DNA of 64,000 bases from Antitrichia curtipendula (Eukaryota > Streptophyta > Bryopsida > Hypnales > Leucodontaceae), in contig OX579639.1 of NCBI GenBank assembly GCA_951230915.1, positions 14,632,001 through 14,696,000 on the forward strand. Direction: 5' to 3'. The position numbers and the translations under genes are program-made. A model generated the notes under the pieces. It saw only the letters and a program-made list of their open reading frames with translations. It made no database searches and was not told where the DNA came from. Position 1 is the stretch's first letter; the number at the start of each line of letters is the position of its first letter. Of the stretch, positions 6,326-61,992 are shown in pieces.

Positions 6326-6392
6326 CAGGAATGCTAGAATGTGAGCAGTGAGCAGTGAGCAATGAGCAGTGCAGTGTGAGTAGTGAGCAGTG
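6326..6392 (+). repeat. E1 left terminal inverted repeat with GAGCAGT heptamers
   Basis: It begins CAGGAATGCTAGAATG and continues as GTGAGCAGT/GAGCAAT heptamers. The complement of the right end begins CAACGACGCTAGAATG and runs into the same heptamers. E2 ends have the same plan (TGCTATTTTG plus GAGCGTA/GAGCATA heptamers). Confidence 0.8.
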
Positions 6393-7347
6393 AAATTTTT
6401 TATTTATTTATGTGTGGTACCCTATGACCACGGGATTTGGGGGTATAAAGATGTGAAATTTGACTGAGTGTGGCGCCCAAATCCGTGGAAAAAAATAAAT
6501 TGCTGGCGAAAGTGGGATTCTAAATCGTAGAAATCAATCTTTCAAAGTACTCGAATAAAATGAATGGATGATAGATTGATAAAGATGAATGTTCTCTGAA
6601 CAAGGATGAATGAAATATTCTTGAAAAAAATTTAAAAAAATTAAATTATGAGTGGGACATGATTGTTGCCCCTTTTTAATATTTTGGGCAGAATTCACAC
6701 ATAAATTTGGAGTGCCAAAAGGGTTCTTCGGTACCGAGGAACCCTACTGGCCTCTAAAAAAATTTGGAGAGCTAAAAGGCCTCTTTGGTACCGAGGAGGC
6801 CTTTTGACCCTCCAAATTTTTTTGAAGCACAAAAGGGTTTTTCGGTACGGAAGAACCCTTTTGGCACTCCAAATTTTCTTCGGAAGTTCAACGTATTGTT
6901 TGTTAAAGCTACAATTTTAAAAGGGCCATGCAAAATGTATCCTCAAAACAAGTTAAAGTTTTTTTGATGAGTTCACGTGAGTTGAGCTCTACCTCAACCC
7001 CACCTCAACACAAGTCACTTTTTTTTTGTTGTGTTGAGGTTGTCTTCAAGTGCGTAATTTTCTCTAAACTGATTTGAATAAACAATATGAACAAAGTCTG
7101 TAGATAGAAAGAGATATGATTAAATGTAATGTATAAATTTCTAAAAACACAAAAAAGGCATTATGACGATGGTATATGAGAGAATTGGCAAATGATATCA
7201 AGCCCACTGAAAGAGGCCAATATCAGTGAAGTTCCAAAGACATCAAAACAATGTAAGACAATTAGAGAATATGAAGTACCAAAATAAAGTGTAGTGGCCC
7301 TTTTAGTCTCACTACATGGAAGTAAACAAAGCGTACAATGAAAAAAG
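6393..7347. other. E1 left subterminal region
   Basis: Non-coding apart from the hairpins at 6700-6880. A string GGTACCCTATGACCACGG at 6416-6433 resembles the CCTATGACCGTGG strings near the ends of E2, a possible family-wide subterminal motif. Confidence 0.45.
6700..6880. repeat. Nested hairpins centred on GGTACC
   Basis: Three successive inverted repeats of about 30 bases each fold around TTCGGTACCGAGG, TTTGGTACCGAGG and TTCGGTACGGAAG. The whole segment is also an imperfect palindrome, since GGAGTGCCAAAAGGGTTC at the left pairs with its complement at 6854-6874. The core motif recurs in the 137-bp satellite of this element and near its right end. Confidence 0.75.
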
Positions 7348-7712
7348 TCAAGATTTGGAAACACAGTCTGAACTGCTACCACACATAGAAGATGCCTCAC
7401 TAGAAGTGGCACTAGAACTGCTCTCAGTGCTGCCATTGGAAGTAACAACAATAACCTCCTTTGCCTCATAGTCAATATATCTATGCACATTCGGATCATA
7501 TCGAGGTAAAATTGGGACTTCCGTAGGACTATCCACATTCGCAAGGTCGATGGCCATTGCCTCAATGTAACATGGTAAAGACAACGGACTTGGAGGACTG
7601 GGAAAAAAGTCTACCAACCTGCAGAGATGGAAAACAATGACATGAAATTAATTATTACTTCTGAAGGAAATAAAGTTAAAATAGAAGCAAATGAAAAAAG
7701 GGTAGGACTTAC

Positions 7713-8756
7713 GTACACATGCGATTCTTCGCAATCCTCTTTGTAGGTCTTTCCTTCGCGGTGCCTTTTGGGGCTGGTGGTTCCTTTCGTTTTTTGCCCA
7801 TGGAGCCCTCGGAGGAAACTGCAGTAGAGAGTGGAACTAGAACAGCCTCAAAGATTTCCTCATCGGACTCGAGTGCAATGAGGTGACGTCCACTTCGACG
7901 GCAAGCGTGAACGCTGGAGCCTAAAAAATACAAATACGTCGCATAAAAATCAAAACAAATTGCTGAAGGGTAGAAATAATCATAAATTAGAAACAAATGA
8001 AGAGTGAAGATTGTACCAGTTGATGCATTGCAATCCAACACCACATCCCCAGGTTTGGAAAAGCTCTCAATAAGAAGTTGCACAAGAACAGGGTCTTTTT
8101 CTCGAGCTCCTCTCCACATTTTGTCCCCGTTCTTTAAGGCCGTAGTCAAGCTAGTGTAGTTGTAAAGGGCACATTGCCCAACAATATCAGTGCCCAAATT
8201 ACTGAGGTCTCGATTGACTTCAATGGAGAATTGGGACTGAACTGGATTGTCAAAGTATGACTCCTTCACGTAGAGGATAATCCAAAACCGCTTAGTCTGG
8301 AAAAGAAAAATACAAAATCAGGAGGAGATAAATCATTAACATCCATATGAAGTAAAGATACAGAATGCAAAGGATAAAAGGAGAAACCCATGGAATGGAA
8401 AGGCTTAAAATTATTACCGTGCAACTGTGGTTTCTGAAAGATGTGAGTAGCATATTGTTGACGCCCCACCAATCATACAACGTTGTGAAACCGTAAGCTT
8501 CTGCAAGACCATCCGTTGCTTGTCGGACCTCTGGAATATCAAGGTGGAAAAGCATAACCGCCCCATCATCTTGCAGTGTACTACAAGCCACCTCAAAAAT
8601 GGATTCCGGCCAATCCTCTGCTAGTGTATTCCATGTGGGGACCGAAGCTCCCATATCTGGGATTGGAAGACCATCTGGCACATCTGCCACGATAAGATCA
8701 AGGCAAGCCTCTCTCTTGAGCACACCACCAAGGAGTTGTTGACGACCACGCCCCAT
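7713..8756 (-). CDS. Exons of the beta-class DNA-methyltransferase-like domain (E1)
   Basis: Exons 8756-8418, 8296-8017 and 7920-7713. DLIVADVPDGLP occupies the place of the catalytic DPPY motif, followed by the acidic and aromatic landmarks of the fold. WRGAREKDPVLVQLLIES and VVLDCNASTG-SSVHACRRSG then match the motif X to motif I region of N6_N4 methylases (canonical VLDPFAGSGTT...A..LGR..IGIE.D), ending GRHLIALESD. The order IV then I makes it beta-class. The catalytic tetrapeptide is DVPD, not (D/N/S)PP(Y/F/W), so activity is uncertain. MT-A70 (METTL3-type) enzymes lack this arrangement. Confidence 0.65.
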
Positions 8757-11580
8757 CTATGCAAGTACCAACAACAAGAAAAAGATCTTTAGAACATGTA
8801 CTAGCACATGAAATAGAATATAACAAAGAGCCGAAAGAAATACAAAAGAGTATTAGGGCCAAACCTTCTGAGCAAATGTCAAGATCTGCGTGAACTCAGG
8901 AGAGGGTTGCTTATTGAGGACCATGAACTGCATGATAGAGTGAACCGAAGTCTTCAAAAGACGGACTTTGGAATTTACACCATGTGTGTCAATGCGTTTA
9001 GCAGTCTTCTCATAAAGCTAAGATGGTGCAAAAATCTCCGTGGACATTGAAAGCAACTCCGGGGGACAATGTCTTGGACTAATAAACCTGCCAGGGTTAA
9101 TGGGGTCCACAGAAATAGTCTCTGAAGCACTCCCAACAACAACTGCTTCTCCCTCACCCTTGCCTTTTGAAGTACTGCCCTTTGTCTCCTTGGTCTCAAT
9201 TGTCTTCTTGGTCCCCACAAATTCCTTAGTTACCTTTCTTCCTGTCTTGCTAGTTTTCTTCATCTCTATCTCGGACTGGGGGTCATCACTCATATCTGCA
9301 TCGGAATCCTCTGCAGGCACTTGGGTTGAGGATGACTGAAGCGCCTTCTCAGCTTCTTCTTCACTTGGGACAAATTTCTTTGGGCATTCCAAATACCATG
9401 GATATGCTGTGTGCTCGATAGAATTAAACCCACGTACCTGCCCAGGTGTAAACATGTATGCATCCTTCAAAGTTTTCTCCAACCAACCCCCAAATAATTT
9501 TGGGAAAGACTTCTTGTCAATTGCTTTCTTCCCAAGGAGTTCTCTTTTGAAATACCTTCAATAAAGAGAAATGCAATGTTAGAGAAGAATATGTGAAATA
9601 CAATTGTTTCAAAAATTTAAGGGCTTGAAGTTTCATGTAAGCCATTAAAAGGGTCAGAGCACAATACAATCTAGTTACTATGTCGTCCATTAATGAAGTT
9701 TCAAAACCAACCAACTAAGATCAAAACATGAAGGTCAGGTTTGAAAACTGAATGAAGTTAGAAAACCAATCCAACAAAACACAGCCATGGACTACCAACA
9801 ATTGCATACATGAATAACTTCAAAGCAATTAATATTACCAAAATCTCAATTTAGAAAGAAACCCCGTGACCAAAAAAACAATGCAAAGAGTCACCAGAAT
9901 AGCCTCCTCGTTACCGAAGAGGTCATTTCATATCTAGCTTCCGTGCCAGCGTCTGTGAGCGTCTACCCAGGCTTTTTAAAACTCACCACAAAAGCTTCCG
10001 GCGGAGCGTTCGTGACATGTCCGACAAAGTAGACATATTGTATTATCTAAATAGCAATAAGTACCGGAGCCTTGGTCACTTCAAAGCAACAAAATCTAAC
10101 ATTTGAACCACATTGGATAGCAAGAAAGTTAACTTGGTAAGGTAATTGAAGATTTTACCGGTACTGCAGACGCTGCATTGCTCTCTTAGCTCCGTCTTGT
10201 GAAAGAAACAGCTTGGATCGAGAGTATTCCACTGACTTGCGGAAATAGAAATAAAATGCGTGATCCCACAAAATAATGCGGTATTTTTCAATGTACTCTT
10301 CAATTTCGTCCACATCATCTCTTGCTCTCTAGTCCACCATAATTTCCTCTGACTTCATTGTTTCGTTCACAGCTTGAACCGTAACAAACTCCAACTACAA
10401 GCGTGTATAATAAACGAATTAGTTACAATACAAGTACAAGTAGCTTCACATACTATTGAGCGACATAGATCGGATGGCTTTGTTAAAGAAACGTCTCAAT
10501 TCAAATAGCTCACCTGAGCCCAGAAAGCAGCCTTGGTTAACCACGCTTCTAGTTTCTTGTTAGTGACACCAGCTGTTGGAAACCGCAACGCTACACGGTT
10601 CAAATCTCCGGAATTCCACCAATTCAACTACTTGACCTTGAACTGGGGTTCAACAATTGTCGATGAAATCTTCTGGAGTTTCTCAAGTGACATCTCAGGC
10701 TTCTCAAACTGGCTCCAATGGTAATATATCTAGAATTCAAATATGAAGGATTCATTTGTTAATAGCGTAAATGGAAACTTGTTTTCATTTTCGAGATTAA
10801 TTCATTTTCAGTCAAGTCCAATCAATTTCAATTTCATGAATCAAATATAGACAAAGAAATATACTAAAACAACAATCACCCATTATTTACTCAATTCTTG
10901 GTGTACAGAAGAAACTCACACTTCCTTGAAGGATATTGCAATTGCATAGAGTGCACATTCACCATGATAAGAATTTGACAATAAATTGAGGGAAGGTGAG
11001 GACAAAGTGGTTTGCTTACCACTTCCAGGAACTGGGGGCCATGCTTGGGATTTACCACGCCTATCATCTTGTCAAACTTTGTACGGTAGGACTTCACTCT
11101 GGCTTGTGAGGCAGTTTCCATTGCATCGTGTATGCCACGAGCAGTACGGTCTACCTTTGCGGTCTTCTCCATGTACAATCTAGCAGCTTCATCCGCAGCG
11201 GCGGAGACATCTTGCTGCATATATGACGTCAAAAATTAGATTCCACTCCATGAAGAATGGGAAATACTTCAAAATAACAAATTGGTGAGAAAACAATTCT
11301 TACCCGGTTCAAGAATTTGATAAAGACATCTGATGTTAACAGATACCATGGATACGGCTTTGGTTGAGTCTCATAGGCTTTGTACTCATCCGCTGTGAGT
11401 AACTCTTTAAAATCAGATAACTTTAATACCCCATACAAACTTACGCGATGCAGTTTGTGTACAAGGTTTGTTTTAACATGCGCATTCTCCGTAGACCTGG
11501 GAAATTATGAAAATTAGATAGAGGTTCACTCAAAGCCGATTACACAAAATCAACTTAGAAGATAAATCATATTTACATAC

Positions 11581-12350
11581 TTGTTTACATCGTTCATTGC
11601 ATTCAGAAGAATGCCAGTACTGCCCTTTGATGTGAGGAGTATAGTATCCACCGAAAAATGCCATTCCGCCTCATCTGAATGCAATCGTGAAATATACTTA
11701 CTCCAAGCTTGGAACCTATGGTTTCCATCCCAGATGAAGAACATATGGCCGGAAAGAGAAGACAAGTGCACATTAAAAGATAATTGCTTTTCAAATGCAT
11801 CGTTCTCCTTTAGCCAGTGAAAATCCCAACTCTCCATAATTTCGTCCGTGACAAGCTGAGATTTCCCAGCATCATTTGATATGGATACATAGAATACTTG
11901 GTCACCTTCCCGATATCCATGTACAAACTCTGCCTCTAAACGCCTAACATCGGAGTGTAGAAGTGGTCGGACTAGTGGCAAAGGAATCATCCGACAAAGT
12001 GGAATTCTCAAGTGAGAAGAATCGACTAGCTTGAACCGCAACTCCTGTATTATTGATATGGAATCAAGCTTCTCCTTCACTCTGAAGGCATTCTCTGCCT
12101 CATCAATGCTGAGTCCAACCATCATGTCAGTTGTCAAACTCTCCTCATGGATTGTTGTAGTCTCATCCTCCACAGGTAACAAGCTTTGAGATTCAACTAC
12201 ACCGTCCTTCCGGAGTTCCTCGGACGTGCCATCGCCTTTAACTCCAACATTCTCGTCTCCGACACTTTGCATCGTCTCAAACTGCGGAGAACCTACATCT
12301 CCGACATTCTGCAAAGGAACAATCTCGGACTCCATGTTCTCGACGTCCAT
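11581..12350 (-). CDS. Exon with ParB/sulfiredoxin-like motif (E1)
   Basis: The exon encodes 256 residues. The first 70 are acidic and Ser/Thr-rich. The second half contains GHMFFIWDGNHRFQAW (about residues 201-216 of the exon), matching GKMFFVWDGNHRLAAW in E2. It resembles the G-H-R-R-x-x-A box of ParB/Srx-fold proteins, where this turn binds a nucleotide. In bacteria this domain often precedes an N6/N4 DNA methylase in one polypeptide, the same order as here. The assignment rests on this motif and the gene context; the rest of the domain is too diverged to call by eye. Confidence 0.6.
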
Positions 12351-12574
12351 CTGCCAAATGAATCAAAGCAGCCATTTAAAACACAGATACTACACGAAGT
12401 CACCTGTAATCCAATCTGAAACATTTAGAGCGAAAGCTTACCTCAAATTCATCGCCCAAGGAAAGAGACTCGCATGCACCAACTTCATCATCTCCCATCT
12501 ACAGAATTATCCAAACGTTAACAGTAAAAGATAAATCAAGAAAGGAAAAGTATCAGCACAAGTATCAGAAACAA

Positions 12575-15130
12575 ACTTCATAAGCCCTGAGCGGCAGTTT
12601 TGGTACCGAGGAGCGCTCAACCCAAGTCGCCAAAATCTAACAAACATCGGGGACGCTCTATCCCCATGTGCAAATTATCGAGAGCTTCCACACCAGCCTG
12701 ACGCAAAACAAATTTGAAAGAGCCCCAAACAGCCATTTCGGTACAGAGGAGCGCTGAGCACATGAAGCCAAATTTAACGAGCATTGGAGATGCACTGACC
12801 CAAGAGCAAATTATCGAGAGTGTCCACACCAGCCTGACGCGAAACAAATTTGAAAGAGCCCCAGTCGGCCATTTCGGTACCGAGGAGCGCTGAGCACATG
12901 AAGCCAAAGTCTAACGCGCACCGGGGCCGCATTGTCCCAAGTGCAAATTAATGAGAGTGTCCAGACAAGCCTATCGGAAACAAATTTCAGAGAGCCCTAG
13001 ACGGCCATTTCGGTACCAAGGAGTGCTGAGCACATGAAGCCAAATTTAACGAGCATCGGGGACGCACTGACCCAAGTGCAAATTATCGAGAGTGTCCACA
13101 CCAGCCTGACGCGAAAGAAATTTGAAAGAGCCCAGACGGCAGTTTCGGTACCGAGGAGCGCTCAGCCCAAGTAGCCAAAATCTAACGAACACCAGGGACG
13201 CTCTGTTCCCATGTGCAAACTATCGAGAGTGTCTACACCAGCCTGACGCGAAACAAATTTGAAAGAGCCCCTGATGGCCATTTTGGTACCGAGGAGTGCT
13301 AAGCGCACAAGTAGCAAAAATTTGACACGCCCCGGGCACGCTCTGTCTCCGAGTGCAAAAATCTGTACTGTCCACGAAACCTCTGTCGCGAAAGAAATTT
13401 CAGGAGCCCAAGACGGTAGTTTCGGTACCGAGGAGCTCTGAGCACATGAAGCAAAAATCTAACGTGCACCGGGGACGCACTTACCCTAAGCGCAAAATCT
13501 TTACTGTCATCACAAGCTCTGCCTAGATTCAAATTTCGAGAGCCCTGGATGCCAGTTTCGGTACCGAGGAGCGCTGAGCAAATGAGGCCAAAATTTAACA
13601 CGCACCAGGGACGCACTGACCCAAGTGGAAATTATCGAGAAAGACCGCACAACCTCTGCCGCGAAACAAATTTCAAAGGGCCCCAGATGGCAATTTCGGT
13701 ACCGAAGACGCTAAGCACAAGTAGCCAAAATCTGACACGCTCCGCGCACGCTCTGTCCCCGAGTGCAAATTATCGAGAACCCAAACCAACCCTGCCCCGA
13801 AACAAATTTCAAGAGCCCCAGACAACCATTTCGGTACCGAGGAGCGCTGAGCACATGCAGCCAAATTTTACGCGCACTGCAGACGCATTGACCCCCAAGT
13901 GCAAAATTTGTCGTGACCAAACAGCGTCTGCCTAAAATCATATTTCAAGAGCTTCAGATGGCCGTTTTGGTACCGAGCAGCGCTCAGCCCATGAAGCCAA
14001 AGTCTTACGCGTACAAACACAAATTGACCCCAAGTGCAATATATCAAGAGTATCCACACCAGCCTTGCCGCGAAACAAATTTTGGGATCCCCAGACTTCC
14101 GTTTTAGTACCCAGGAGCGGTGAGCAAATGAAGCCAAAATTTAACGCCCACCGCGGACGCACTGACCCAAGTGCAAATTATCGAGAGAGACCGCACAACC
14201 TCTGTTGCGAAAGAAATTAGAAAGAGCCCAGACGGCAGTTTCGGTACCGAAAAGCAATAAGCCCAAGTAGCCAAAATCTAACGAACACCGGGGACGCTTT
14301 GTCCCCGAGTGCAAATTATCGACAGTGACCGCACAACCTCTGCCGCGAAATAAAATTCGAAGAGCCCCAGACAGCAGTTTCGGTACCGAGGAAAGCTAAG
14401 CCCAAGTAGTCAAAATCTAATGAACACCGGGGACGCTCTATCCCCATCTGCAAATTATCGAGAATCCAAACCAGCCCTGCCCCAAAACGAATTTCGGGAG
14501 CCCCAGATGGCAGTTTTGGTACCGAGGACGCTAAGCACAAGTAGCGAAAATCTGACACGCTTCGGGCACGCTCTGTCCCCGAGTGCAAAATCTGTACTGT
14601 CTACACAACCTCTATCGCGAAAGAAATTCCAGGAGCCCAAGACGGTAGTTTCGGTACCGAGGAGCTCTGAGCACATGAAGCCAAAATCTAACGCGCACCG
14701 GGGAGGCGGGGACGCACTTACCTCAATTGCAATTTATTGAGAGTGACTGCACAACCTCTGCCGAGAAACAAATTTCAAGAGCCCCAGATGGCAGTTTAGG
14801 TACCGTGGAGAGCTGAGCATAAGAAGCCGAAAACTAATGCGCACCCTTAAGCAATGTCCCCGTCTCCAAAATCTGGAGTGTCCGCACAACCTTGTTGACA
14901 AACAAATGTCACAAGCCCTCAGTGGTAGTTTCAGAATCAGGGAGCGCTGAGTGAAAAAGCTCAAGAACGAACGCCCACTGAGGTTGCAATGTCCCCCTCC
15001 CCAAATTTTAGAGTGCCTACAGAACTATGTCGAGAAACAAATTTCACAAGCCCGAGGTGGCAATTTCGGTATGGAGGAGCACTGAGCAAAAGCAGTGAAG
15101 AACTAAGGCCTACCGGCGACGCACTGTCCC
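12575..15130. repeat. 137-bp satellite array, about 19 units
   Basis: The landmark TTTCGGTACCGAGGAGC(G)CTGAGC recurs about every 135-140 bases from about 12600 to 15070. Each unit also carries a GGGGACGCACTGACCC box, a GTGCAAATTATCGAGAGTG box and a CGAAACAAATTTCAAAGAGC box. Units diverge more towards 15000. The array fills most of the first intron of the minus-strand cargo gene, and its GGTACC core is the same as in the terminal hairpins of this element. The many short open frames here are artefacts of repetition. Confidence 0.9.
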
Positions 15131-15145
15131 CCTCCCCAAATTCTC

Positions 15146-15285
15146 AATATGAATTTGATCTTACCTAAAATCAGTAAAGACAGTGATCATACCTCAAATC
15201 GCACTAAACCCTAAATTCTCAATACAAATTTGATCTTACCTAAAATCAGTAAAGACAGTGATCATACCTCAAATCGCAAATGTGG
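15146..15285. repeat. Tandem duplication of about 73 bp
   Basis: The string beginning TTCTCAATA(T/C)GAATTTG and ending CATACCTCAAATCGCA occurs twice in direct tandem with almost no change, at the edge of the satellite array. Confidence 0.8.
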
Positions 15286-17074
15286 TTGTTTTTCTGTGGC
15301 ACGAATGAGCAGCTTGAAGACGGAATTGCTCCCCTCGACAGTCAAGCTAGAGGCAGAAACAATGATTCCTCTCAGAGGCCACGGGGAACCCGAGGCGGAA
15401 CTCCTTCACCGTAAACCCTCAAGGGTGAAATTATCCGTCCATCCCGAATATGCACATCTACCGCGATTGGGTTCGGCCCCTTAAACCAGACCAATATCTG
15501 TCCGGGGTCATCGATTTCCATGTTCCCTTACTTGTTCAAATGTTAAACTAATTTCATTATCCCCTCAACATCTGGATTCATCTCCAGATTTGACGATTTA
15601 AGCAAATCCACTATGAACTACAATTCGGGTACCCAATATTTTGGAATCGGTATTCAAATGAAAGCTATAGATTTTGATTTTTAAATCCTATCTGTGATGT
15701 TAGATCCTCAATTTTTTTGAGTATATGTTAGAATGGATTTAAAATGAGGTTATCTTCATATGGTGATTTATTGAAGTTTATGTGACCCTTGCATCATCGA
15801 CCTCATTTTTGGACATCTAATCTTCAGCTAATGTCAATGATAATTGACCACTTGACATACTTCCACATTTGTAGCTTTAGAAACACATATATTCTAGTAA
15901 CACCAAATCCAACAAGTTCTGCAACACAAAGCTCGACTTGATTTTGTGAATATATTTATTTTCTACTTGAATTTTTTCCACTTCATGTTCAAAGCTTTAA
16001 ATTCGTAAAGTGGACATTTTAGGTTACATTTCTGGGAGAAAAATGTATACTTATCTATTTACCTTATAGTAATAATAAGAAAAAAGTACAAGATATTAGA
16101 AAAATCTAAAATATTAACAATTTCTCGATGGAATTCTATTGCAAAAATCTTAATTGTGAGATTGTGGTAGAAAGAAAACTAAACTAAACCATCCAAAAAC
16201 AAATGATTAATTCGGAAAATTCCACTGAGAAATGAATCCTCAGAAAAATGAATCCCCAAAAAAATTGTTTATAAATATCACTAATAAATTTTAGGACATT
16301 GTTACCTGTCCAAAAAATAACCGTTGTCCTCCAAAGGGGCAATGGTTTTTTAGGGGTTAAGCACTTAATCCTAAGTGTATCTATAGAGTATAATAATGTA
16401 TCTTATTTCTGAAATTAGCAATCAGTTGATATGGTCCAAATTCACGGCATTCAAACTACATCATCTCAAATAAGTTTAAAAGGAAATCCTACCTTAAGAT
16501 TTTTAATAAGTTTTCAGTTCTTCTGAAGAGATTCCTCTCACATGGCTAAGGTCTTCAAAGGTTAATTTGACAATCACAACTACTTTGGCTCGATACACAA
16601 ACTCTTTAACTTGACTACACAATCATTTTTGTAGACTACACAGCCATGTTTTAGACAAATGCGGTTCTAATGAGCTAAACAAGATCCCAAATTAAGAGTT
16701 TTTGTTGGTGGCAAATGCCAACCATACAACAGCGTACATCTATATGCAATTGTCGATTAGTCCTTTAGGGGATAGGTGGAGGTATGCAATCACTTTATTT
16801 TAAGATCTCCACCACTTGGCGTCCACTCATTTACAAGACATTATTATTTTCATAGCGTCTCCATATATCAAGAAGAGGAACTCACGCAATTGTAAAGGGA
16901 GTTCACTATGAAAGGGGTAGCACTCCAGCAATAGCCGTTTAATCCATAATATCTATAGAAAAAGGAAGATTTACCAAAATAATAGGCTGCCAACTAAAGA
17001 TGTCCGAACAATTCCTTTCACTAATATCATCAATAACCAAGACATAAAAGAAAGCTATGGAAATTACAACTCAC
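15286..17074. other. Remainder of the large first intron of the E1 cargo gene
   Basis: 15290-15480 is more GC-rich and looks like a transcribed leader or alternative first exon on the minus strand, but I cannot show a start codon. 15480-17030 is AT-rich without recognisable coding or repeat structure. Confidence 0.4.
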
Positions 17075-17431
17075 CTCTGGATATTGGTCAGATGCACTTC
17101 TTTGCCACCCAGGTAATTGAGTCAATGATTCGAACTCCTCTTCTTCAGCACCATTGGGTTGCCCTCCTCCATTTTCAGAGTGAATTGAAGAGTCAAACTG
17201 TGATTCTAACAAACCAATCCTTGAATTCTCATTGAGCCTACCACGCTCAAGATTGCCCCCGTCCATTGTAGACCCACTACCGAGCCTATCGAACGTAGCA
17301 ATCAAAGATGTTCCCCTCGCTTCTCCAAACCTGGTCTGATATTGTCTGGCCATTCTAGACCTCTCAAGTTGTTTTCTACTAGAAAACCTCAGACCTCTCC
17401 TGCGTGTCCTTCTTTTTGGCCCTTCTCGCAT
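17075..17431 (-). CDS. First exon: basic Arg-rich N-terminal segment (E1)
   Basis: 119 residues starting MREGPKRRTRRRG and ending at a good donor (CCAGAG|GTGAGT). The block KRRTRRRGLRFSSRKQLERS aligns with KRRKRQALYFTDQKRLKKS at the equivalent place in E2. It looks like a nuclear-localisation or DNA-contact region, followed by a Gly/Asn/Glu-rich stretch. It ends in phase 0, and the next acceptable acceptor on this strand (at 12499-12500) is also phase 0. Confidence 0.6.
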
Positions 17432-20562: not shown

Positions 20563-20567
20563 TAGAT
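20563..20567. repeat. 5-bp target duplication TAGAT, left copy
   Basis: TAGAT precedes the TG at 20568 and is repeated at 23990-23994 after the terminal CA. The homologous codons in E2 are contiguous, which confirms the insertion site. Confidence 0.85.
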
Positions 20568-40000: not shown

Positions 40001-40009
40001 GTAATCGGT

Positions 40010-40580: not shown

Positions 40581-40598
40581 TGTAGGTAACCACTGTTC

Positions 40599-47020: not shown

Positions 47021-47024
47021 AAAA

Positions 47025-48281: not shown

Positions 48282-48353
48282 GGGGATTGCTATTTTGCGT
48301 GCGTAGAGATGCGAGCGTAGAGCGTAGAGCATAGATTTGCGAGCATAGAGCGT
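48282..48353 (+). repeat. E2 left terminal inverted repeat with GAGCGTA heptamers
   Basis: TGCTATTTTGCGTGCG is shared with the right end; AGAGCGTAGAGCATAG heptamer runs follow. Confidence 0.85.
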
Positions 48354-52961: not shown

Positions 52962-53781
52962 GGCAATCCTAAATCTGAAAGAGGGAATACAACAGACATG
53001 CAAAACAAGGAAATGAAAAATGTCGCTACCGAATTCCTTGAATAAGAAACGTAGTGCTTGACGACTACGTCAATTTAGTCATTTCATTTAATAACCAAAG
53101 ACATGCCACCATTTAGTAGTATAAGAAAGCATTGTATTACTGAACCGAATTTGGTGGTACACGTTCCATTCAAATAGTATCCGTTCCTAGTTACAAAGGA
53201 CATTGTTGGATCTGCAGCCAGTTGGAACCGGCGGCATATCTGTAGATCCTGCACAGACAACAGAGTGTCTCATTAGACTAAATTCTCTGAGTATGCGTGG
53301 TTATAAAAGCAGTCCTTGAAATTATTATTAAAAAGGCAATTAGTCTATGAATAGCTACAACTACTGCACACGTAATTAGAAGCAAGTAGGCTCTTAACTA
53401 GTAAATCTTCCATAAATTGACCTCCCTCCAGACAACCGTCAATTGAAGTGTCAGAATATTTAAACCGCGAATTGGTGGCGGGACCAACTCTTAAGAACGG
53501 CAACTGCCTTTACGATATTCATTTTCATAATAAATCAGTCATGACGGCGCCATGAGATTGAATATACCAAGCTGTCATTAGTGGACATCGGCCCGTGAGA
53601 ATGGCGACATGCCATTGGTGTTTCTAACATGATCCCTAACATCCCGTGGGGCTGTAGAACTTGTTATTATGGCGCAAGCACTTGAAATAATACCAACATA
53701 GGTATTATGATACATATATAGAACTAGGGTAATAAGTATTGCGGGGAGTGGAGCTGACAATCAATTCCTACGTCCTTCAGA
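52962..53781. promoter_or_regulatory. Divergent intergenic region of E2
   Basis: 820 bases between the start codons of the transposase (minus) and cargo (plus) genes, the same layout as 17432-17986 in E1. No assignable TATA box. Nothing else recognisable. Confidence 0.5.
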
Positions 53782-54109
53782 ATGCCGAAGAGACGAAAAC
53801 GACAAGCTTTGTATTTTACAGATCAGAAGCGTTTGAAGAAGTCTCGGATTATGAGGGAGTTGCGGTCACATTGTCGCATAGCTGATGTAGGAGAGACAGT
53901 TAGAGTCCTTCAATTTGGTAGCAAAGAACCATTAGATAGCGAACTGCAGGGTCTTCCATCAGCTAGCCTTACAGAAATTGCAGAGGAGACGATGGGGGCA
54001 GAACTTCCAGAGAAGTCCTCCCCAGCTAGTAGCGCAAGTGGAAGCTCTCCTGATGAGTGTGCCTTGGATCGTGGCAAGCGATCGAGTAGAAAGGGCACTA
54101 GAGAGCAAG
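53782..54109 (+). CDS. First exon: basic N-terminal segment (E2)
   Basis: Starts MPKRRKRQALYFTDQKRLKK; the Lys/Arg pattern aligns with the E1 exon 17431-17075. The second half is acidic and Ser-rich. The donor GAGCAAG|GTATTG leaves phase 1, met by the acceptor at 55864 which supplies two bases. If unspliced, the frame runs on to a stop at 54210 with a hydrophobic stretch (FFVGFLSSLLVIFKV) that I think is intron. Confidence 0.6.
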
Positions 54110-54879
54110 GTATTGTGACGATGAAATTTTTTGTTGGTTTCCTCTCATCACTGTTGGTGATTTTTAAGGTGTTATCACAAGCATCTTCTGCAAACGCATT
54201 GCAAGCGTGAGTTGCTAGAGGGTTTACCACCTCGGGAAGACAACCCGCGTCATATTTGAAGTAGTAAGGACATTTAGCGATATTTGACAGCTTTGTAGGA
54301 TCTCAAACGCTAAAGATGGTTGCCGGAGAAGTAACTTCTAATTCAAAATGCTAGTACAAGAGAGGCCGAGAGAGTGATTAATGACATTGGAAGTTTCAGG
54401 AGTTGAGTAATTAGTGGGATTGTGAATTAAGTGGAGTTGAGTTTCTTGTCTATCGGGAGACGTCGGAATTTATTCTAGAGTTCGCCAATCCTGGTCTTAT
54501 TGGCCCGTAAGCACTAACCAAAAAAGAAAGGATGTTATTCGCGGGGCTTCATAAACAATTGCGCATAGACACGCATGGAGAATTGAATTAATTCATGATA
54601 GACACGCTTCCAGTGAAAATATCAACAAGGAAAGAAAAAACGAAAACTAGTGGGAATATATTTTTGGTTTTTTGTCGGGAGTGATTTCACATGGCTGGTT
54701 CCTATTGAAGCAACACCGTCTACGAAAAAACTCGTATCTGTCCAGGAGCCACGATCTGAGCAAGGCATCAGGGTTCCGTTTAGCGGCAGGTTGAACTAGT
54801 CGGCCAGGGCATGCAATTCTCGGACGGCGTTGACGATTGGGTTCGGGATTCGATTTGGCAACACTCGCTAGGATTTCGA

Positions 54880-55580
54880 AACTCGTCTTTGCTGTCGACC
54901 TCGGTACTCTTTTGCTCTTGGACGCCACACAGGTTTATGCTCGGACACACAGCCAGGGATCAAAACTCCTTAGCTTTCGGGTCTTGAAGTTGTTCAAGCT
55001 TTGAACACCGGTAGGGTTTCAGTAGTCTTCTGCTCTCGGATTCGGTACTGTTAATGCTCGGACACAACCTAGAGTCTCGGAATTTTTTAGCTCTCGAATG
55101 TCGCAAATGTTAGTGCTTGCATACAAGCCAGGGATCAGTGGTCTTGAACTCTTATCTCCGCGACTTGTTCAAGCTTGGAAACACGCTAGGGTCTCGGTAC
55201 TCCTTTGCTCTTCGTTCCCTTACTTCTTTTTTGTTGGACACACGCCAGGGTCTCGGTACTCTCTTGCTCTCGGATCCAGTACTTAATTCTGCTTGGACAC
55301 ACACCAGGTTCTCGGTACTCCTTTGCTCTCGGATCCAATACTTCATTCTGCTTTTTATGCTTGGACACACGCCAGATCCTGGTACTCTTTTGCCCGCGGG
55401 TCCGTTTCTTCTTTCTGCTTGGATACAAGCCAGGGACAGGTTCTCTATTGCTATCGGACCCGGTCCCGTTTCACGCTTTGACAAATCCCAGGGATAAATC
55501 CTCCTTTGCTCTCAGATCGGGTACTTGTCAACGTTTGGATACTGGTCAGGAAGCTCACCAGATTCTAATACTCCGCAACA
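54880..55580. repeat. Minisatellite of about 59-65 bp, roughly 11 units, in the first intron of the E2 cargo gene
   Basis: Repeating boxes are GGTCTCGGTACTCCTTTGCT, CTCGGATCC and TGCTTGGACACACGCCAGG. It occupies the same intron as the 137-bp satellite of E1. Its complement contains GTACCGAG, the core of the E1 satellite, although the units are otherwise unrelated. Confidence 0.88.
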
Positions 55581-56059
55581 TTCCAAGTTGGGATAATCGA
55601 TAGATTTACGTTTCTCCAGTCCTGTTTAGGGTGCTCGCGAGAATTTCGTCCGATTTGCTAGACATTCACTTTAGGGATTTCAATCTTCATTTGCAAGCCT
55701 TTGATTTTATTGAAGGAGTCAACCAAGGCGATACATTTGGCTCGTTTCATACTACTCGGTCAAGTTTGCAGTTACGATTCACTATTTTCTTGTTTAATTT
55801 GCTGTCCATTCCACCGTTTACTTTTGTGAATTCACTGAAGCCTCACGAGAATGTTGGATTCCAGCAGGTTCTGCCAAGATGGACAATCAAGGCGCAAATT
55901 CGTCACCGACCAGCACAGACAAAGCGGAACTGGAGTGGCAAAAAAAGCGCAATGAGGAGGAAGGAACGGACACCACAGGAGGTAAAATTCCCAAGCTTGG
56001 TGCATGTTTTGTCAACACTCTTATGTGCAATGAATTGCATTTGTCCTCATAAAAAAGAA

Positions 56060-56545
56060 GCACTTCCTTGGAGGCGCTGCCAATGTCGGCACCACCTCCA
56101 ACGGGGCGCTGCGGATTAGCAAAGCCCCCCTTTGGAGGTGGTACCGATGTCGGCACTGCCTCCAAGGAGGCGCTTCAAAAAATGAAGCACCTCCTTGGAG
56201 GCAGTGCCGATATCGACACCACCTCCAAGGGGGGGCTTTGCTAATCCGCAGCGCCCCCTTGGAGGTGGTGCTGACGCCGGTAGCGCTTCCAAGGAGGCGC
56301 TTCAAAAAATGAAGCCCCCCCTTGGAGGCGCTGCCGACATCGGCAGTGTCTCCATGGCGGGGCTGCGGATTTTCAAAGCCACTCCATGGGGGCAGTGCCG
56401 ATATCGGCACCACCTCCAAGGGGGGGCTTTGCAAATCCGCAGCGCCCCCTTGGAGGTGGTGCCGATGTCGGCACTGCCCCCATGGGGGGGCTGCGGATTT
56501 ACAAAGCAACCTCGTGGAGGTGGTGCCGACGTCTGCATTGTCTCG
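56060..56545. repeat. Palindrome array (TGCCGATATCGGCA and CCTCCAAGG) in an E2 cargo intron
   Basis: Alternating direct and inverted copies of a module joining (GGCA)GTGCCGATRTCGGCACCACC, CTCCAAGGGGGGGCTTTG and GCGGATT, about nine times. A perfect TGCCGATATCGGCA is at 56396-56409. The intron runs 55982-56604. Strong cruciform potential. Open frames in all six frames here are artefacts. Confidence 0.88.
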
Positions 56546-56766
56546 ATAGGGGCTTCACAGAGCGAGCTCTTCTCAAATCCGCTGTTTTTTTGTCCTTGGT
56601 GCAGCACAATCCGCGGACATGACCGATCCTGGAAGGGTGTCGGTGCGAGATAGGCTGCAATCCTCGTCGCAGCCAGAAATTCATGAGTCGGGTGCGAATC
56701 CTAAACCTGGTTCTGTGAGGTTATGTTGTTTCTTCGCCTTTGGCTAACGATAATTGTTTCACAGAG

Positions 56767-57377
56767 GAAGTGGGTGATGAGGATGTTGAGGCATCCCAAC
56801 ATACTGATGAAGCAGAAAAAGCGTCAATGGAGATGACCACCGAGGAGCTTGGGAGGGAAATGGACAAGATGGTTGTTTGGGAGTCGGTGAATACGAACGT
56901 TGTCTTGGAAATGCTGCGATTCACACCAAGGGAGAAGTCTAAGCTCAACATCCCGCTCTGTTGAATGAAAGCTCTGGCTGCTGTTCGACCCTACCTGAAG
57001 AACGACGTGATGGCACTGGGTGCACATTTTGTAAGTACAGGATACATGGACGGGCACGGTGTTTTCTATGTCGCCTTGCAGGACAACGAGGGCAAAACGC
57101 TGGACGTGACAGACAAGGATTTGGCCAGTTGGAGTCCGTTATGGGTTGAGGCAAATGAGAATTTCGAGAAGGAGCTTCAGAAGGAAGACGCCTGGAAGCA
57201 ATTCTCGGGAAAGATGTTCTTCGTTTGGGATGGCAACCATCGGCTCGCGGCCTGGCTGCCAATAATTAACAAAGACCATGGAGACGATCCGTCATGGCAT
57301 TATGCGGTTGAATCAATTGTTCTGGAGGTGGAAGGCCAGATTGGGCCACTCCTCACCGCGTTGCACCAAGTGAACTG
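56767..57377 (+). CDS. Exon with ParB/sulfiredoxin-like motif (E2)
   Basis: Encodes an acidic helix (EEVGDEDVEAS...), then LNIPLC, a TGA (56962-56964), then a domain containing GKMFFVWDGNHRLAAW near the equivalent of residue 340. The alignment with E1 is continuous across the TGA (E1 reads IPLCRMIPL), so the stop is a recent nonsense change. WDGNHR resembles the nucleotide-binding turn of ParB/Srx-fold domains. Confidence 0.62.
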
Positions 57378-57750
57378 GTAATCCACGAGCCCGGCCCTTT
57401 TCTCTTGCTCGTTTACTATGAAGTATGTGTGCTCTTGTGTTCTTACTCTCAACTGCTGAAACAGGAGAAACCAGACCTGCCATGTGAAGTTAAACCTTGT
57501 ACACAAACTCTATCGGCTTCAGAGTATAGCTGGCCAGCCATTGTGCTATTACGAGAATCTAATTACCACTGAAGAGCTAGATGACGCCGAAAAGAAGCAG
57601 AGGTCAAAGACCTGAACATGGTACACGTTAACGCTTGACGGGCTCATAAGCGTTCTCTATCAGGTACGGCCCTTTATCATGCTTGATGATTTGGGACTTT
57701 TTCGCTGTTTGGTGATGTCTTTTTCTTGGCATGAGACTCTTAAAATGGAG

Positions 57751-57836
57751 TGCCGATATCGGCACCCCTCTCAGTGGTTCACTATGCTCAGCTGTCTGGG
57801 ACACCACTGAAGGGGCTGCCGATGTCGGCACTCCAA
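57751..57836. repeat. Inverted pair of GATATC/GATGTC palindromes in an E2 cargo intron
   Basis: GAGTGCCGATATCGGCACCCC (from about 57749) faces GCTGCCGATGTCGGCACTCC (from about 57815), separated by about 45 bases that themselves pair imperfectly (CTCAGTGGTTC and CACCACTGAAG). It lies in intron 57664-57970. Confidence 0.8.
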
Positions 57837-59520
57837 ATCCAGTACACTTGCTGCCTTCTGCTTCGTACTACCACTGCAATAGACGGGTTGAGGATTTCAA
57901 TGTTTTGAAACATAATTCTTACACTTCTCCAAAATTTACTCTTTCTGTCGCCTTGTCCATTGTCTTGCAGCAAGAGTTAGGTGAGGTAGTAGCTTACGCC
58001 ACCAGGAAATTCAAGGAAAAGTATCCGGAGAAATCAAGTGAATGGACTACGGGGAAGCTGTACGATGTCATTGGGAAGGCCGTGGATAAAGTGAAGAAGG
58101 ATATGTCATCTGATGTGAAGAAACAACTCCCCATTGCTGACCCAAGGCAAACTCCGCAGTTCCTGGAACAAGTTAGGATTCATTATGAGAACCGAGAAGA
58201 CGACCCGGAGATGTCCCAAGAGAAGTTGTGGTATCTTTCTACCTCGGTCATGGACGCGGCAGTGAAGGTGAAATGGCTGGAGCGGTGGAACAAACCTGCC
58301 TCGCTTCGTGAAGCAATGAGGTTCCCGAAAAGCAAGTTCCCGGATCATGCATTTCCCGACTAGCTTCACAAGGCCACCTGGTGGGCTCAGGTACAATGTC
58401 TCCCTGTTCTGTTATTTTCATTGACTTGATGCTGTCGTCTAGGAGTTATCACTAATTCCCTGTTGTAGTTGGCAAGTTTGGTGCAGGAATTGTTCGATGC
58501 GACTCTTTCTGAGCTGGATGTCACAATCAATTATCAACCGCCTGGGGAAAGTCCAATTCCTTGCGTTGCTGATTATGTGGAGCAAAATCGTATCCAGCTT
58601 TGGGATACAGCATTCTCCCATGTCTTTGATGGCAAAGGAGTTCACAAGAATCATCCTCCTGAGTTTCAGGTTGGTCTTGACAAGGCTGTTGCGAGGGTTC
58701 TCTACCGGTATTTCAAGTTCGTGTTGTATGCAAGAAACGCCACATCAAAGATGCCGTCATTCTTTCCAAGCTACTTGGACAAGCGTGCCGAGAATTGTAT
58801 GATCTCGGATGAGATCACGAGAAAGTGGAAGAAAGAGCACTGGGAAGTTTGTGGGTGGTATATTGACTGCCCCTTGAACAATCCTCCGCACTTTAAGATT
58901 GATTTGAGGAACACGGTGCAACCCAATTTGGCTGGGCTGAAGACGGTTCACGATACTCCGCGTAAAGATGCGCCTGCTAAGAAGACAAGGGGCTCAAAGA
59001 GGAAAGCAGAGGAAGAAGCAAAGAAGAAGGCTGCCTCAAATGCTGCAGCCGCTCTGGAGAGTGATGTTATGGCTTCGGGGAGTGCCAAGAAGACTGCGGT
59101 TCCAGCCCTGGGTGAAGATACGAAAATGGAGGCGATGGAGGTTGTTCTTCCCAGGCCTTCGCAGCTCACTCCTAGTGGTGCTCGTAATCCGCATGTTCCT
59201 TCTCTTCCTGGCCTCTTTAGCCCACTGTCGTTTATAACGCACAAGCTCAAGAGCGCAGTCGCCTCTCGGGTATCGGCTTTGGCGTCAGGATCTTCTGTCA
59301 AATCCAGTGTCTGTGTACAGAATACCAGCCTCTCTCAGATTATGGAGGCTCTCCCGGAGGTGCACATTTGTCTTGACGCGGTGAACAAGTTTGTTCTCAA
59401 GGTTTGTCTTTATACTCACCACATTTCTTTCACTAATTCCTGTGCGTTTAGAGGCAGACGGGACTCTGTGGTACTTCTGTTAAGTATGAATTAATCAATT
59501 CTACCTTCTGTAATCTCCAG

Positions 59521-60524
59521 GTCAAGGAAGAAGACGGTGAAAAGGCTTTGAATAAGTCTTGTCCGCACAGTGGTTTTGATTTGATTCATGTCGATATCAA
59601 GGATGGCCTCTGGGTTCCGTCCATTTCGGTAAACCCCGGCGATGTCCCTGCCTGGAATGCATACTCGGAGCAACACACTGAAAGTCTTTTTGAGTTTGCG
59701 GAACACTTTCTTCACGGTGCGGGTGCAATTCTATTGTTTGTGCCAGATGTTCCAAAGATCCAAACCGATGTGTTGTCCTATGCACATGGCTACAACTTCA
59801 TTCTGCATCGAGAGTGGTGGGGAATTAATGACCTGCCCTCTGCGTCGTTTTACAATTCAACGTATAAGGTAACTACTGTTTCAAATCAATACTTCATTTC
59901 ACTGCATTCTACAGTTTCTCCTGGTTCTAATTCAATTCCACTATAATGTCCATTTTCAGAGTAGAGGATTCCGTATTCAGCTCTTCATTCACCGTGCCAT
60001 GGATACTAGCGAATTCATGATTGCGAGCGACCAAGCACTAGTGGAGTTCGGAATGGGAGTTGCTGAAACTGACGTGTTGTTCAATTTCACTACGGCGGTC
60101 ACTCAATCCATGAATGGATCTGTTCCGTGGAGAGGCGCCCGTGAGAAGGACCCAGTTTTCCTTCAAATGTTGATTGAGGCTTTTACGATGCCTGGATCCG
60201 TCATCCTGGATGCATCCGCTTCTCTTGGTAAGTAGTCTTTTCTATCGTGATGCTTCTCCTGGTAAATTGTCTTTCCTCTCATTTTTCGAGTCATTTCTAA
60301 ATGTAAATTGCTTCATCCGAATTCAGGTAACTCTGTTCAAGCTTGCAAAGCTATTGGACGACACATTGTAGCCCTCGAAGACGATATTGAGATCTTTCGG
60401 GCTAAGTTGGAGCACTTAGACCAGGTTGAAGCTATACCTCCAATTCCACTTGAAGCTTCCGAGACTCCAGCAGAGATTGCACTGGACGTCCCTATTCGGC
60501 ATATCACGAAAAAGAACAGATTCA
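59521..60524 (+). CDS. Exons of the beta-class DNA-methyltransferase-like domain (E2)
   Basis: Exons 59521-59868, 59960-60227 and 60327-60524. HVDIKDGLWVP stands at motif IV (the catalytic position, normally DPPY). WWGINDLPSASFYNSTYK, then PWRGAREKDPVFLQMLIEAF and VILDASASLG-NSVQACKAIG with GRHIVALEDD, form motifs X-I. Introns fall at the same codons as in E1. The catalytic tetrapeptide differs from E1 (DIKD against DVPD), so neither is canonical. It may be a non-catalytic SAM-binding or DNA-binding module. Confidence 0.62.
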
Positions 60525-60824
60525 GTAAGTACGTTTTCTACTTGATTCTAATTTGTTTCATTTTCCTGTTTGTGATCAGTTCACTAACATAAACTCGTTT
60601 GTCTCAGAGTGATTTCCTTACTACATTCTCCGGACAGAGACTATTTTATGGCGCCGTGGGACGCAGAAGTTGCTGTGTTGCAGGCGGTAGGATCTTCTCC
60701 AACCTCCACGTCCACTGGTAGATGTTCTGGTAGACCCGTCCGTCTTTTTATTGATGACGAGGCCGATGTTGATATGGAACCAAGACCAGTATCATCTGGC
60801 AGTTTTTCCACTTTCTCGTTTTGA

Positions 60825-61924
60825 TAATTTCATTGTCTACCGGATTTATTGTTATAATTCTTTTTACACACATTCATTTTGTGCTTTCCTTTGTAATGTT
60901 CAAAGTGTGTATATATCAGTGAATGGTTTATCTTAACATCCATTCGTTGTGTATTTGAATGTGGTTGTCTAACTGATCAGCTTAAATACATCAATTCTCC
61001 GAAGTATTTGTGGCTTGGCCTACACTCTCAATGACTTGGGAATAGATAGACATATTAAGCACTAAACCTCGAACCCTCCTAAATTTGAGGAAGTTCTGCA
61101 TGCGAAGTCTCCCTGATTTCATTCGTAACCCGTTTATTAATCAATTTGTTCATAAACTTGTTGCAGTCTGTTTGCTCTATCATTGTTGAATGCATTCAGA
61201 TTATAATTTTCATGAATGGATGTTTTTTTAGTACATTTTTTTCATCTCTATGACGTGAATAAATCCTCGATAGTTTCCATTTTTTTCTTCAACTGTTGGA
61301 GACACACTCCATAAAGGCCTAAACTTGTTTCTACTTCAAAAGTGGAAATCCCAGAAAATATACAAATGTTGATGCCCTCAATGTGATTGCTTGTTCCTAA
61401 CTGGGAATCCAAAAAAATATAGAATTGGTTAGCCGACGAAGTTGTTTATGTTTCAAGCTTGGGAATTCAAAAAAATACACAACTGTTGAAGCCCCCCAAA
61501 GTGTTTTCTGGTTTCAATATGGATTTCTACAATAATTTCCAAATTTCTCCTTCAACTATTGGAGGCACACTCATGTTTGCAGTTTTTTAAGGAATATGAA
61601 ATGTTCTATTTTTGTTAATGGTGTGATTATATCCAAAGATAACTTACTTTCTTTTAAGGAACTCTTCCCATGGCCTCAGGGTAACAATGGCCATAGGGTG
61701 TCCACGGCCATAGGGCACCTACGCAATTCCGAAAATAACCCGTCTCTGTTTGCCATTTGATCACCCTGTGCCGCCTATTACCGTGGTCAATTGTTTCTCA
61801 CATTCGACTAACCTCACGGCTATAGGGCCCTACTTTTGTACAACTACTTTTATTTTTACTTTATGTTTAACTTAGAATCTATCTTTTACTTTTACTTTTA
61901 TAGAATATGCCCATTTTAGGGGAC
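60825..61924. other. E2 right subterminal region
   Basis: Non-coding. 61280-61580 has a degenerate repeat of about 70-75 bases (AACTGTTGGAGACACACTCC ... GGGAATTCAAAAAAATA). 61670-61835 carries several GGCCATAGGG and CCGTGG strings matching the left subterminal region. Confidence 0.5.
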
Positions 61925-61992
61925 CCTAGGCTCGCAAAACTACGCTCACCGCTCTATGCTCTATGCTCACCGCACGCAAAATAGCATCGTCC
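61925..61992 (-). repeat. E2 right terminal inverted repeat
   Basis: GCTCTATGCTCTATGCTCACC heptamers (complement of GAGCATA) precede CGCACGCAAAATAGCATCG at the tip. Confidence 0.85.

Follow-up and report, generated by a model that had tools for sequence, protein, structure and literature searches.

A ParB–methylase-like gene paired with the transposase in giant MULE-type transposons of Antitrichia curtipendula

Introduction

A window of 64,000 nucleotides of Antitrichia curtipendula DNA (contig OX579639.1, positions 14,632,001 to 14,696,000 of the forward strand) holds two large elements, E1 and E2, each with a transposase gene and a second gene (gene 2) that joins a ParB-like region to a DNA-methylase-like one. 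ParB proteins are DNA clamps, and ParB and beta-class methylases are typical of bacteria and phages. The locus raises the question of whether gene 2 serves the transposon and, if so, in which role. A first-pass annotation had described two related MULE transposons with 9-10 bp duplications and mirror-symmetric content, and had argued from the lasting pairing of the genes that the second serves the element.

Results

The limits of the two elements were set from the following features.

6326-25862: E1, whole MULE-type element, 19.5 kb; terminal inverted repeats 6333-6393 and 25795-25855, 82% over 61 bp; end register from phased heptads
6317-6325, + strand: putative left copy of the E1 target duplication (GTTGCGTTG), within a 15-bp identical stretch
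25863-25871, + strand: putative right copy of the E1 target duplication
6326-6400, + strand: terminal repeat at the left end of E1, with GAGC recurring in 7-bp phase; GAGC occurs 5 times within the first 100 bases
25788-25862, - strand: terminal repeat at the right end of E1, with GAGC recurring in 7-bp phase; 6 GAGC
48282-61992: E2, whole MULE-type element, 13.7 kb; limits given by the uninterrupted target site in the left LTR together with the 10-bp duplication
48272-48281, + strand: left copy of the E2 target duplication, GTATTATTGT
61993-62002, + strand: right copy of the E2 target duplication, GTATTATTGT
48282-48356, + strand: terminal repeat at the left end of E2; GAGC heptads in phase, 5 GAGC
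61918-61992, - strand: terminal repeat at the right end of E2; GAGC heptads in phase, 5 GAGC
33829-37197: left LTR of the retrotransposon that hosts E2, at least 3.3 kb; empty site for E2

Both elements ended in inverted repeats of 61 bp, with a complementarity of 82% in E1 and 80% in E2. The target site of E2 was single and uninterrupted in the other LTR (33829-37197) of the surrounding retrotransposon, and the two LTRs shared 99.4% identity in an alignment of 3255 bases, with 20 mismatches and 114 gap columns. Exact duplications of 10 bp flanked E2 and four of the ten copies read first elsewhere in the genome (c1, c5, c6, and c7), while the other six, in which at least one end lay outside the stretch or the end patterns were unmatched, had no scored duplication. 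E1 was flanked by a 15-bp identical stretch, read by eye. A target duplication of 15 bp was dropped for one of 9 bp (GTTGCGTTG, + strand), since the resulting tips put the terminal heptads in the register of the family; this assignment is not proven. With 10 bp in E2, c1, c5, c6, and c7 and 9 bp assigned in E1, the duplications lay within the MULE range of 8-11 bp. The GAGC heptads kept a common register at the 13 ends examined (7 elements), one word excepted; the tips of E2, c1, c5, c6, and c7 were set from their duplications, and in E1 and c9 the register depends on the choice of tip, which in c9 was picked by its first bases. The related ends and the empty site of E2 established both elements as real, as the first-pass annotation had held, and its duplication sizes agreed with ours, exactly for E2 and by putative assignment for E1.

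The transposase genes lay on opposite strands.

17900-25026, + strand: E1 transposase gene (17900-18430, 18562-20076, 20232-20606, 23959-25026), with an interruption of about 3.3 kb
20607-23958, + strand: stretch inside the E1 transposase gene, missing from E2; ORFs 21255-21815 and 21816-22892, of unassigned family
49156-53069, - strand: E2 transposase gene (ORFs 52386-53069, 50766-52385, 49153-50613)

The E1 and E2 transposases were 51% identical over 504 aa (BLASTP of ORFs). In E2 the protein combined a putative WRKY/GCM-like N-terminal fold, an IS256-like RNase H region, and a SWIM motif, and its frame was broken by an in-frame TAG at 52386-52388. The SWIM zinc motif CxCx(n)CxH was present in E1, in E2, and in seven of the ten copies, and was not found in the transposase models of c2, c4, and c10. 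The catalytic domain of the transposase was of the RNase H type and akin to that of IS256, and in it D332 and D398, two candidate acids of a DDE triad, were invariant across 55 transposase sequences. A Pfam search matched none of these 55 to MULE models and one to Transposase_mut (E 0.034). The assignment of E1 and E2 to the MULE type is supported.

Gene 2 ran divergently from the transposase gene, and the gene orders of E1 and E2 were mirror images of each other.

7714-12498, - strand: E1 ParB-methylase-like gene, 10-exon model with three in-frame TAG; the E1-like copy L039 shares this exon plan
12442-12498, 11581-12350, 11304-11496, 11020-11214, 10514-10729, - strand: exons 1-5 of E1 gene 2
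10159-10394, 8865-9555, 8418-8756, 8017-8296, 7714-7920, - strand: exons 6-10 of E1 gene 2
56764-60524, + strand: E2 ParB-methylase-like gene, 7-exon model with in-frame TGA, TGA, and TAG; start provisional; exon plan common to sister copies
56764-57377, 57465-57663, 57971-58390, 58469-59401, 59521-59868, 59960-60227, 60327-60524, + strand: exons of E2 gene 2
11562-12023, - strand: predicted ParB/Srx-fold domain of E1 (about residues 114-267 of ORF 11553-12362)
56764-57377, + strand: E2 exon with the predicted ParB/Srx domain and a DGNHR motif
7714-8756, - strand: exons of the E1 methylase-like domain; altered motif IV DVPDGL, motif I LDCNASTG
59521-60524, + strand: exons of the E2 methylase-like domain; altered motif IV DIKDGL, motif I LDASASLG

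The encoded protein had about 1000-1060 aa (models of 993 and 1061 aa) and combined a nucleotide-binding fold of the ParB/Srx type with a middle region, a basic linker, and a domain resembling beta-class DNA methylases. Between E1 and E2 the ParB exon was 44% identical over 137 aa and the methylase exons 35-42% (BLASTP of ORFs), in accordance with the homologous, diverged proteins and mirror symmetry described before. Structure modelling supported a ParB/Srx fold with a GxxR-like nucleotide motif. D-G-N-H was invariant in all 71 aligned ParB-domain sequences; the motif variants among the 23 gene 2 models were one NGNHR and one DGNPR.

The C-terminal domain is supported as methylase-like by sequence profiles, which showed beta-class homology and motif order: in E1 it matched Pfam N6_N4_Mtase (4.3e-8), and a four-sequence profile matched the PDB entry of CcrM (3e-7). 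Motif IV, located by its position and flanking residues, read [D/E]-x-x-[D/E]-[G/D]-L, and the aromatic residue of the D-P-P-[YFW] motif of active beta-class methylases was found in none of the 20 readable copies, all of which had an acidic residue instead; the count started from 23 models, of which L035, c2, and c7 were unreadable, left out the cut copy c8, and included the homologue L040 from another record. The usual first glycine of motif I was lost in the aligned copies, and the SAM-site region (motif I and the following acidic residue) was partly retained and conserved. The ParB and methylase likeness claimed for this protein thus stood, while the name "methylase" proved overstated. A functional N4-cytosine or N6-adenine methylase placing marks on the DNA of the transposon itself, as parts of PMC12477816 propose for algal relatives (the Ectocarpus Sola1 protein), would agree with the profile and the retained SAM-site region and seems improbable given the changes in motifs IV and I. 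The altered key motif hints that the protein may bind DNA rather than methylate it. Since the domain is still constrained, though less than the ParB part, it presumably has some function, which might be a non-canonical activity.

Both genes were present in all 19 copies read, ten chosen for a stop-free transposase exon and nine being the last of the copy list, eight of them from the group at 63-64% identity. In the unselected genome-wide count, 50 of 59, among the matches listed and including E2 itself, were paired in the right arrangement, and each of the wrong arrangements gave 0 of 59. The 63-64% group showed 0 of 21 paired in that count, which scored the best 150 ParB exons, because its ParB exon was too distant to be among them; the exon was present in all 11 copies of the group that were read. 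Among the matches listed, 27 ParB exons (at least 74% identity) had no transposase within 50 kb, and gene 2 copies without a nearby listed transposase therefore exist. A further subfamily carried both genes (one copy read, L038), and five additional E1-type gene pairs were found. That the second gene might be absent from most copies, the outcome that would have spoken against the first-pass annotation, was checked and was not the case.

The two genes diverged together (Mantel r 0.93, 0 of 5000 permutations, 11 elements, with c1 left out and c7 and c8 incomplete in gene 2), and both had the same nearest relative in 8 of 11 elements, the exceptions being E1, c4, and c7. The dN/dS of gene 2 was 0.09-0.15 for E2 against c2-c6, 0.22 for E2 against L037, and 0.17 for E1 against L039; that of the ParB part was 0.06-0.08 in the five E2/c pairs. 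Between c2/c3 and c5/c6, it was 0.17-0.18 for the transposase and 0.10-0.14 for gene 2. These ratios support purifying selection on gene 2 between lineages, and the values of 0.25-0.59 in eight pairs of very close copies reflect decay after insertion. Because the pairing was kept under such selection, gene 2 probably serves the transposon. E1 and E2 are best explained as belonging to a group of two-gene MULEs that is both large and diverse. Gene capture is frequent in MULEs, and the bacterial or phage character of both domains would suit a Pack-MULE-like passenger captured from a host or a bacterium; such an origin is very improbable for a gene present in every subfamily read, in one orientation, co-diverging and under purifying selection. 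Two coincidences of coding or repeat sequence, with no real family behind them, have a negligible probability: no support for them was found, and the genome-wide copies in the same arrangement and the empty site already refute them.

Neither window copy is intact, since each gene 2 model contains three in-frame stops and the E2 transposase its TAG. Both genes of the earlier description were recovered in E1 and E2, but with these stops and with an interrupted E1 transposase. Reassignment of TAG as a sense codon was considered, as several frames in the window end at TAG, and was rejected because c1 has ordinary residues at the stop positions of E2 gene 2 and because C>T changes are most frequent in CG and CHG contexts. 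C>T singletons were present at 12% of the CG sites, at 11% of the CHG sites, and at 2-3% of other sites; the elements therefore look like targets of host methylation.

Between the two genes of E1 lay a tandem array.

12553-15278, + strand: E1 tandem array (unit of about 136 bp) and 75-bp repeats

Large VANC-like arrays were rejected as a general feature: E1 alone had a strong one, those of E2, c1, and c4 were small, and several further copies had a weak array or none between the genes. The restriction of strong VANC-target-like arrays to E1 and the broken state of both window copies count against the role that we favour below, as do the dN/dS values of the closest copies, the ParB exons with no listed transposase nearby, and the constraint still seen on the methylase-like domain.

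Discussion

We tentatively favour, at a little under even chances, a trans-acting DNA-binding factor that would oppose CG/CHG silencing or otherwise control the element. The gene 2 protein would load on the element's own DNA as a ParB-like clamp, its methylase-like domain serving to bind DNA or SAM rather than to transfer methyl groups in the ordinary way, and would counter host CG/CHG silencing, or control the element otherwise, in a role like that of VANC of the Arabidopsis VANDAL MULEs. The GAGC heptads, phased at either end of the element, are candidate binding sites, and their reader may equally be the transposase.

The heptad register is also what would be expected of binding sites for transposition proteins. 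Gene 2 might encode an accessory factor that binds the ends, takes part in synapsis, guides the choice of target, or regulates cut-and-paste, with a MutB-like role and no link to silencing. The clamp nature of ParB proteins and the divergent, co-diverging genes between the same ends would fit, and second ORFs are known in MULEs according to passages of PMC6446971. This role is nevertheless rather unlikely, as the methylase-like domain has no obvious part in cut-and-paste and the putative WRKY/GCM-like module and the SWIM module of the transposase could themselves read the heptads.

A bolder form of the anti-silencing role, which we regard as doubtful but conceivable, is that a bacterial-type ParB-methylase turned into a catalytically silent, sequence-targeted clamp, which would read the element's repeats and clear CG/CHG methylation, as an independently evolved analogue of VANC that is spread over many subfamilies and probably occurs in numerous plant species. 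Might a transposon escape plant DNA methylation by means of an inactive methylase joined to a ParB clamp? If so, this would be a second anti-silencing route, unrelated to that of VANC, and it might also be put to use for editing methylation at chosen loci. In the E1/E2 group the ParB-methylase accessory gene is a core, selected gene of a very successful plant MULE group, and the catalytic motif is changed in every subfamily with a readable methylase-like domain.

The ParB domain was 11-17% identical to the N-terminal domains of bacterial ParB, Noc, and KorB and to sulfiredoxin. The methylase-like domain resembled CcrM and other beta-class N6/N4 methylases in a profile match over 205 positions and in motif I following motif IV, and differed in that the DPPY-type motif IV and FxGxG motif I were not retained.

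VANC is not known to carry a ParB or methylase domain, and its proposed likeness to gene 2 is one of role. As passages of PMC5735166 describe, it is a precedent for MULE-encoded anti-silencing, in elements that likewise pair a transposase with a second protein and whose targets often lie in tandem repeats. VANDALs are described as non-TIR in parts of PMC6446971, whereas the present group has terminal inverted repeats and falls outside that definition. The TET/JBP genes of fungal DNA transposons, as far as portions of PMC12730594 describe them, also encode a DNA-modification-type protein that possibly acts against silencing, but of an unrelated enzyme class and with unrelated transposases.

The closest system is Sola1-1_Ec32 of Ectocarpus, a 21.5-kb element described in sections of PMC12477816, whose ParB-like and N4/N6-methylase protein lies on the strand opposite the transposase. 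The same sections cite similar proteins for transposons of green and red algae and mention giant EnSpm elements with accessory genes in red algae. ParB-methylase accessory genes are thus already known from algal transposons of other superfamilies, and the earlier statement that no eukaryotic DNA transposon with one had been described does not hold. Compared by description only, Sola1-1_Ec32 shares with E1 and E2 the two domains in one protein, the orientation opposite the transposase, and the giant size of the DNA transposon; its protein has 1104 aa against the 993 and 1061 aa of our models. It belongs to the Sola1 superfamily of an alga rather than to the MULEs of a plant, whose genome here contains LEAFY-family matches, and an N4/N6 methylase is predicted as its product, whereas motif IV is altered in the E1/E2 group.

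Results

The transposon E1 (19.5 kb) had the same kind of ends as its relative E2, and self-comparison of the window placed the inverted ends at 6333-6393/25795-25855 in E1 and at 48288-48348/61926-61986 in E2. Two long direct repeats (33829-35085 = 47025-48281 and 35076-37197 = 61993-64000) were the two LTRs of one retrotransposon. E2 split the right LTR exactly at a 10-bp repeat, the left LTR contained that 10-mer once, and the joined right LTR was 99.4% identical to the left one over the portion within the window, with 114 gap columns and 20 mismatches among 3255 aligned bases (18 of the mismatches were transitions). This marks E2 (13.7 kb) as an exact insertion of recent date. The retrotransposon, with these nearly identical LTRs, was itself inserted recently. 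The neighboring features were as follows.

33829-37197, 47025-48281 and 62003-64000: LTR retrotransposon, LTRs of at least 3.3 kb
26094-27626, minus strand: hAT dimerisation domain, part of hAT remains
32119-33054, minus strand: DUF659, part of hAT remains

The hAT transposon remains (26091-33593, minus strand) adjoined the right end of E1, and a minisatellite of 13-bp units lay at 31338-31833. The Gypsy-type polyprotein frame of the host retrotransposon (43331-46822, minus strand) contained two in-frame TAG codons. Two ORFs gave weak matches below the Pfam cut-off, to zf-C3HC (449-1585, E 0.0028) and to a protein-kinase-like domain (3175-4695, E 1.1e-4).

ORF-by-ORF comparison showed that E1 and E2 carried the same two genes in mirror order, a transposase gene and a ParB-methylase-like gene (gene 2), which, together with the self-comparison, bore out the mirror-symmetric content and related ends described in the first-pass annotation. 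Splice models of gene 2 were built by hand and compared with splice-aware alignments of sister copies, in which the exons of c1, c4, c5 and c6 followed the same plan as those of E2, and the exons of L039 the plan of E1. The gene 2 models contained three TAG stops in E1 and TGA, TGA and TAG in E2, and the E2 transposase had a TAG at 52386. The close sister c1 had ordinary residues at the positions of the E2 gene 2 stops and damage of its own (two stops and two frameshifts). E1 and E2 are decaying family members. Models without a stop were obtained from c6 (one frameshift) and L034 (no frameshift), c2 had none within the stretch fetched, and those of the remaining other copies had 1-5 stops each. 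The E1 transposase gene also contained about 3.3 kb absent from E2 (20607-23958), with two ORFs in one frame and no assigned family, around which no clear target duplication was found.

In the genome searched (400 Mb, 303 contigs), the E1 transposase exon had at least 85 matches, the E2 ParB exon at least 150, and the E2 transposase exon at least 81, counted as at least 80 copies since two rows represented one copy. Profile searches of public records found 266 transposase and 761 ParB-exon proteins, so the group extends beyond one entry. Among the matches listed, the ParB exon lay upstream of and divergent from the transposase within 10 kb in 48, within 15 kb in 50 and within 50 kb in 53 of the 59 E2-like transposase copies (at least 74% identity, E2 included), and the three other gene arrangements occurred within 15 kb in none of the 59. 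A check for copies without the second gene found it present, and divergent from the transposase, in all 19 copies read (10 picked for an open transposase exon and 9 from the end of the list), with its middle missing in c7 and the fetched stretch stopping inside it in c2, c8 and L035. The identity matrices of the two proteins were correlated across 11 elements (Mantel r 0.93, reached by 0 of 5000 permutations): the two genes have travelled together. The proposal that the pairing has been kept over time was supported by the listed matches, the copies read and the matrices.

A further subfamily comprised at least 42 ParB exons with 63-67% identity to E2, 32 of them stop-free among the matches listed, and the one copy read contained the pair, with three stops in its gene 2 model.

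C1:24868424-24876828 of the searched genome (G000): L038, the copy read from this subfamily

This subfamily is probably a recent amplification; many of its ParB exons had a 272-aa open frame. Among the matches listed, five of the 12 most distant ParB exons had a divergent E1-type transposase 5.9-6.6 kb off, one had such a transposase at 22 kb, and six had none. In the region of L039 (C3:32.67-32.72 Mb), E1-type transposases and ParB exons, two of each, lay in opposite orientations within about 50 kb.

Selection was estimated as dN/dS (Nei-Gojobori, own script). Gene 2 gave 0.094-0.154 for E2 against c2-c6, 0.218 against L037 (ParB part 0.185), and 0.168 for E1 against L039. The ParB part gave 0.062-0.080 in five E2/c pairs, and the methylase part 0.153-0.255 in four of the five. 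Between c2/c3 and c5/c6, the values were 0.170-0.180 for the transposase and 0.102-0.136 for gene 2. Those of gene 2 were higher in very close pairs (c5/c6 0.569, ParB part 1.10; c2/c3 0.253; L030/L034/L036 0.37-0.54; L029/L033/L035 0.41-0.59), and the transposase was likewise raised in c2/c3 and c5/c6 (0.66-0.76), which is the decay of copies after insertion. Pairs with c4, a damaged copy (four frameshifts and five stops), gave 0.26-0.33 for the transposase, and dS was saturated in pairs with L038, which yielded no ratio. Along lineages, selection on gene 2 is about as strong as on the transposase.

The beta-class methylase-like domain recognized earlier belongs to a gene kept in the family, but its DPPY-type motif IV had been replaced. 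Placed by position and context, motif IV read [D/E]-x-x-[D/E]-[G/D]-L, and its fourth place was D or E in all 20 readable models (of 23, E1, E2 and L040 included and c8 left out) and aromatic in none. In motif I, the D and the last G were retained in most copies and the usual first G was not. The same changes were found in L040 (CADCWO010000058.1, 1-4691), a multi-exon homologue stop-free in the E1-based model; its contig, filed under an uncultured cyanobacterium bin, is presumably a eukaryotic contaminant. With both motifs altered, ordinary methyl transfer would be lost in the gene 2 protein. Active self-methylation of the element is a less likely function of gene 2 because of the altered motif IV.

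Both ends and exact 10-bp duplications were present in E2, c1, c5, c6 and c7. At 13 ends from seven elements, GAGC words occurred 3-6 times per 100 bases (shuffles averaged 0.25-0.71), spaced by 7 bp or a multiple and in a common register from the tip except for one c7 word. E1, E2 and c9 kept one heptad register despite differing sequences, the tips of E1 and c9 being placed by the analyst. The main alternative to an anti-silencing role of gene 2 is that of an accessory factor in transposition, with these heptads as its sites.

The LEAFY-family domain PF01698 was matched in the searched genome (best 1.8e-27) and in none of 14 control genomes, which, given where that family occurs, points to a streptophyte host. 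Singleton C>T changes in four near-identical copies affected 60/502 CG and 56/508 CHG sites, against 56/2142 CHH sites, the signature expected if the elements carry methylation of the plant type at CG and CHG.

Discussion

A protein joining a ParB-like domain to an N4/N6 methylase, encoded opposite the transposase, is described for the 21.5-kb transposon Sola1-1_Ec32 of Ectocarpus, and the same paper cites similar proteins from transposons of green and red algae (PMC12477816). In the portions of the open-licence literature consulted, neither a ParB-methylase protein in MULEs or land plants nor an altered methylase motif or selection data for such proteins was found, and both absences are weak evidence. 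The element has to be transcribed although its host appears to methylate it. Its second protein is under selection and joins a clamp fold of the ParB type to a methylase-like domain lacking the catalytic motif; these features fit a factor that would bind DNA and hold the element open. VANC, the anti-silencing protein of Arabidopsis VANDAL MULEs, is reported to keep VANDALs open (PMC5735166), and the likeness proposed for the gene 2 protein lies in this role.
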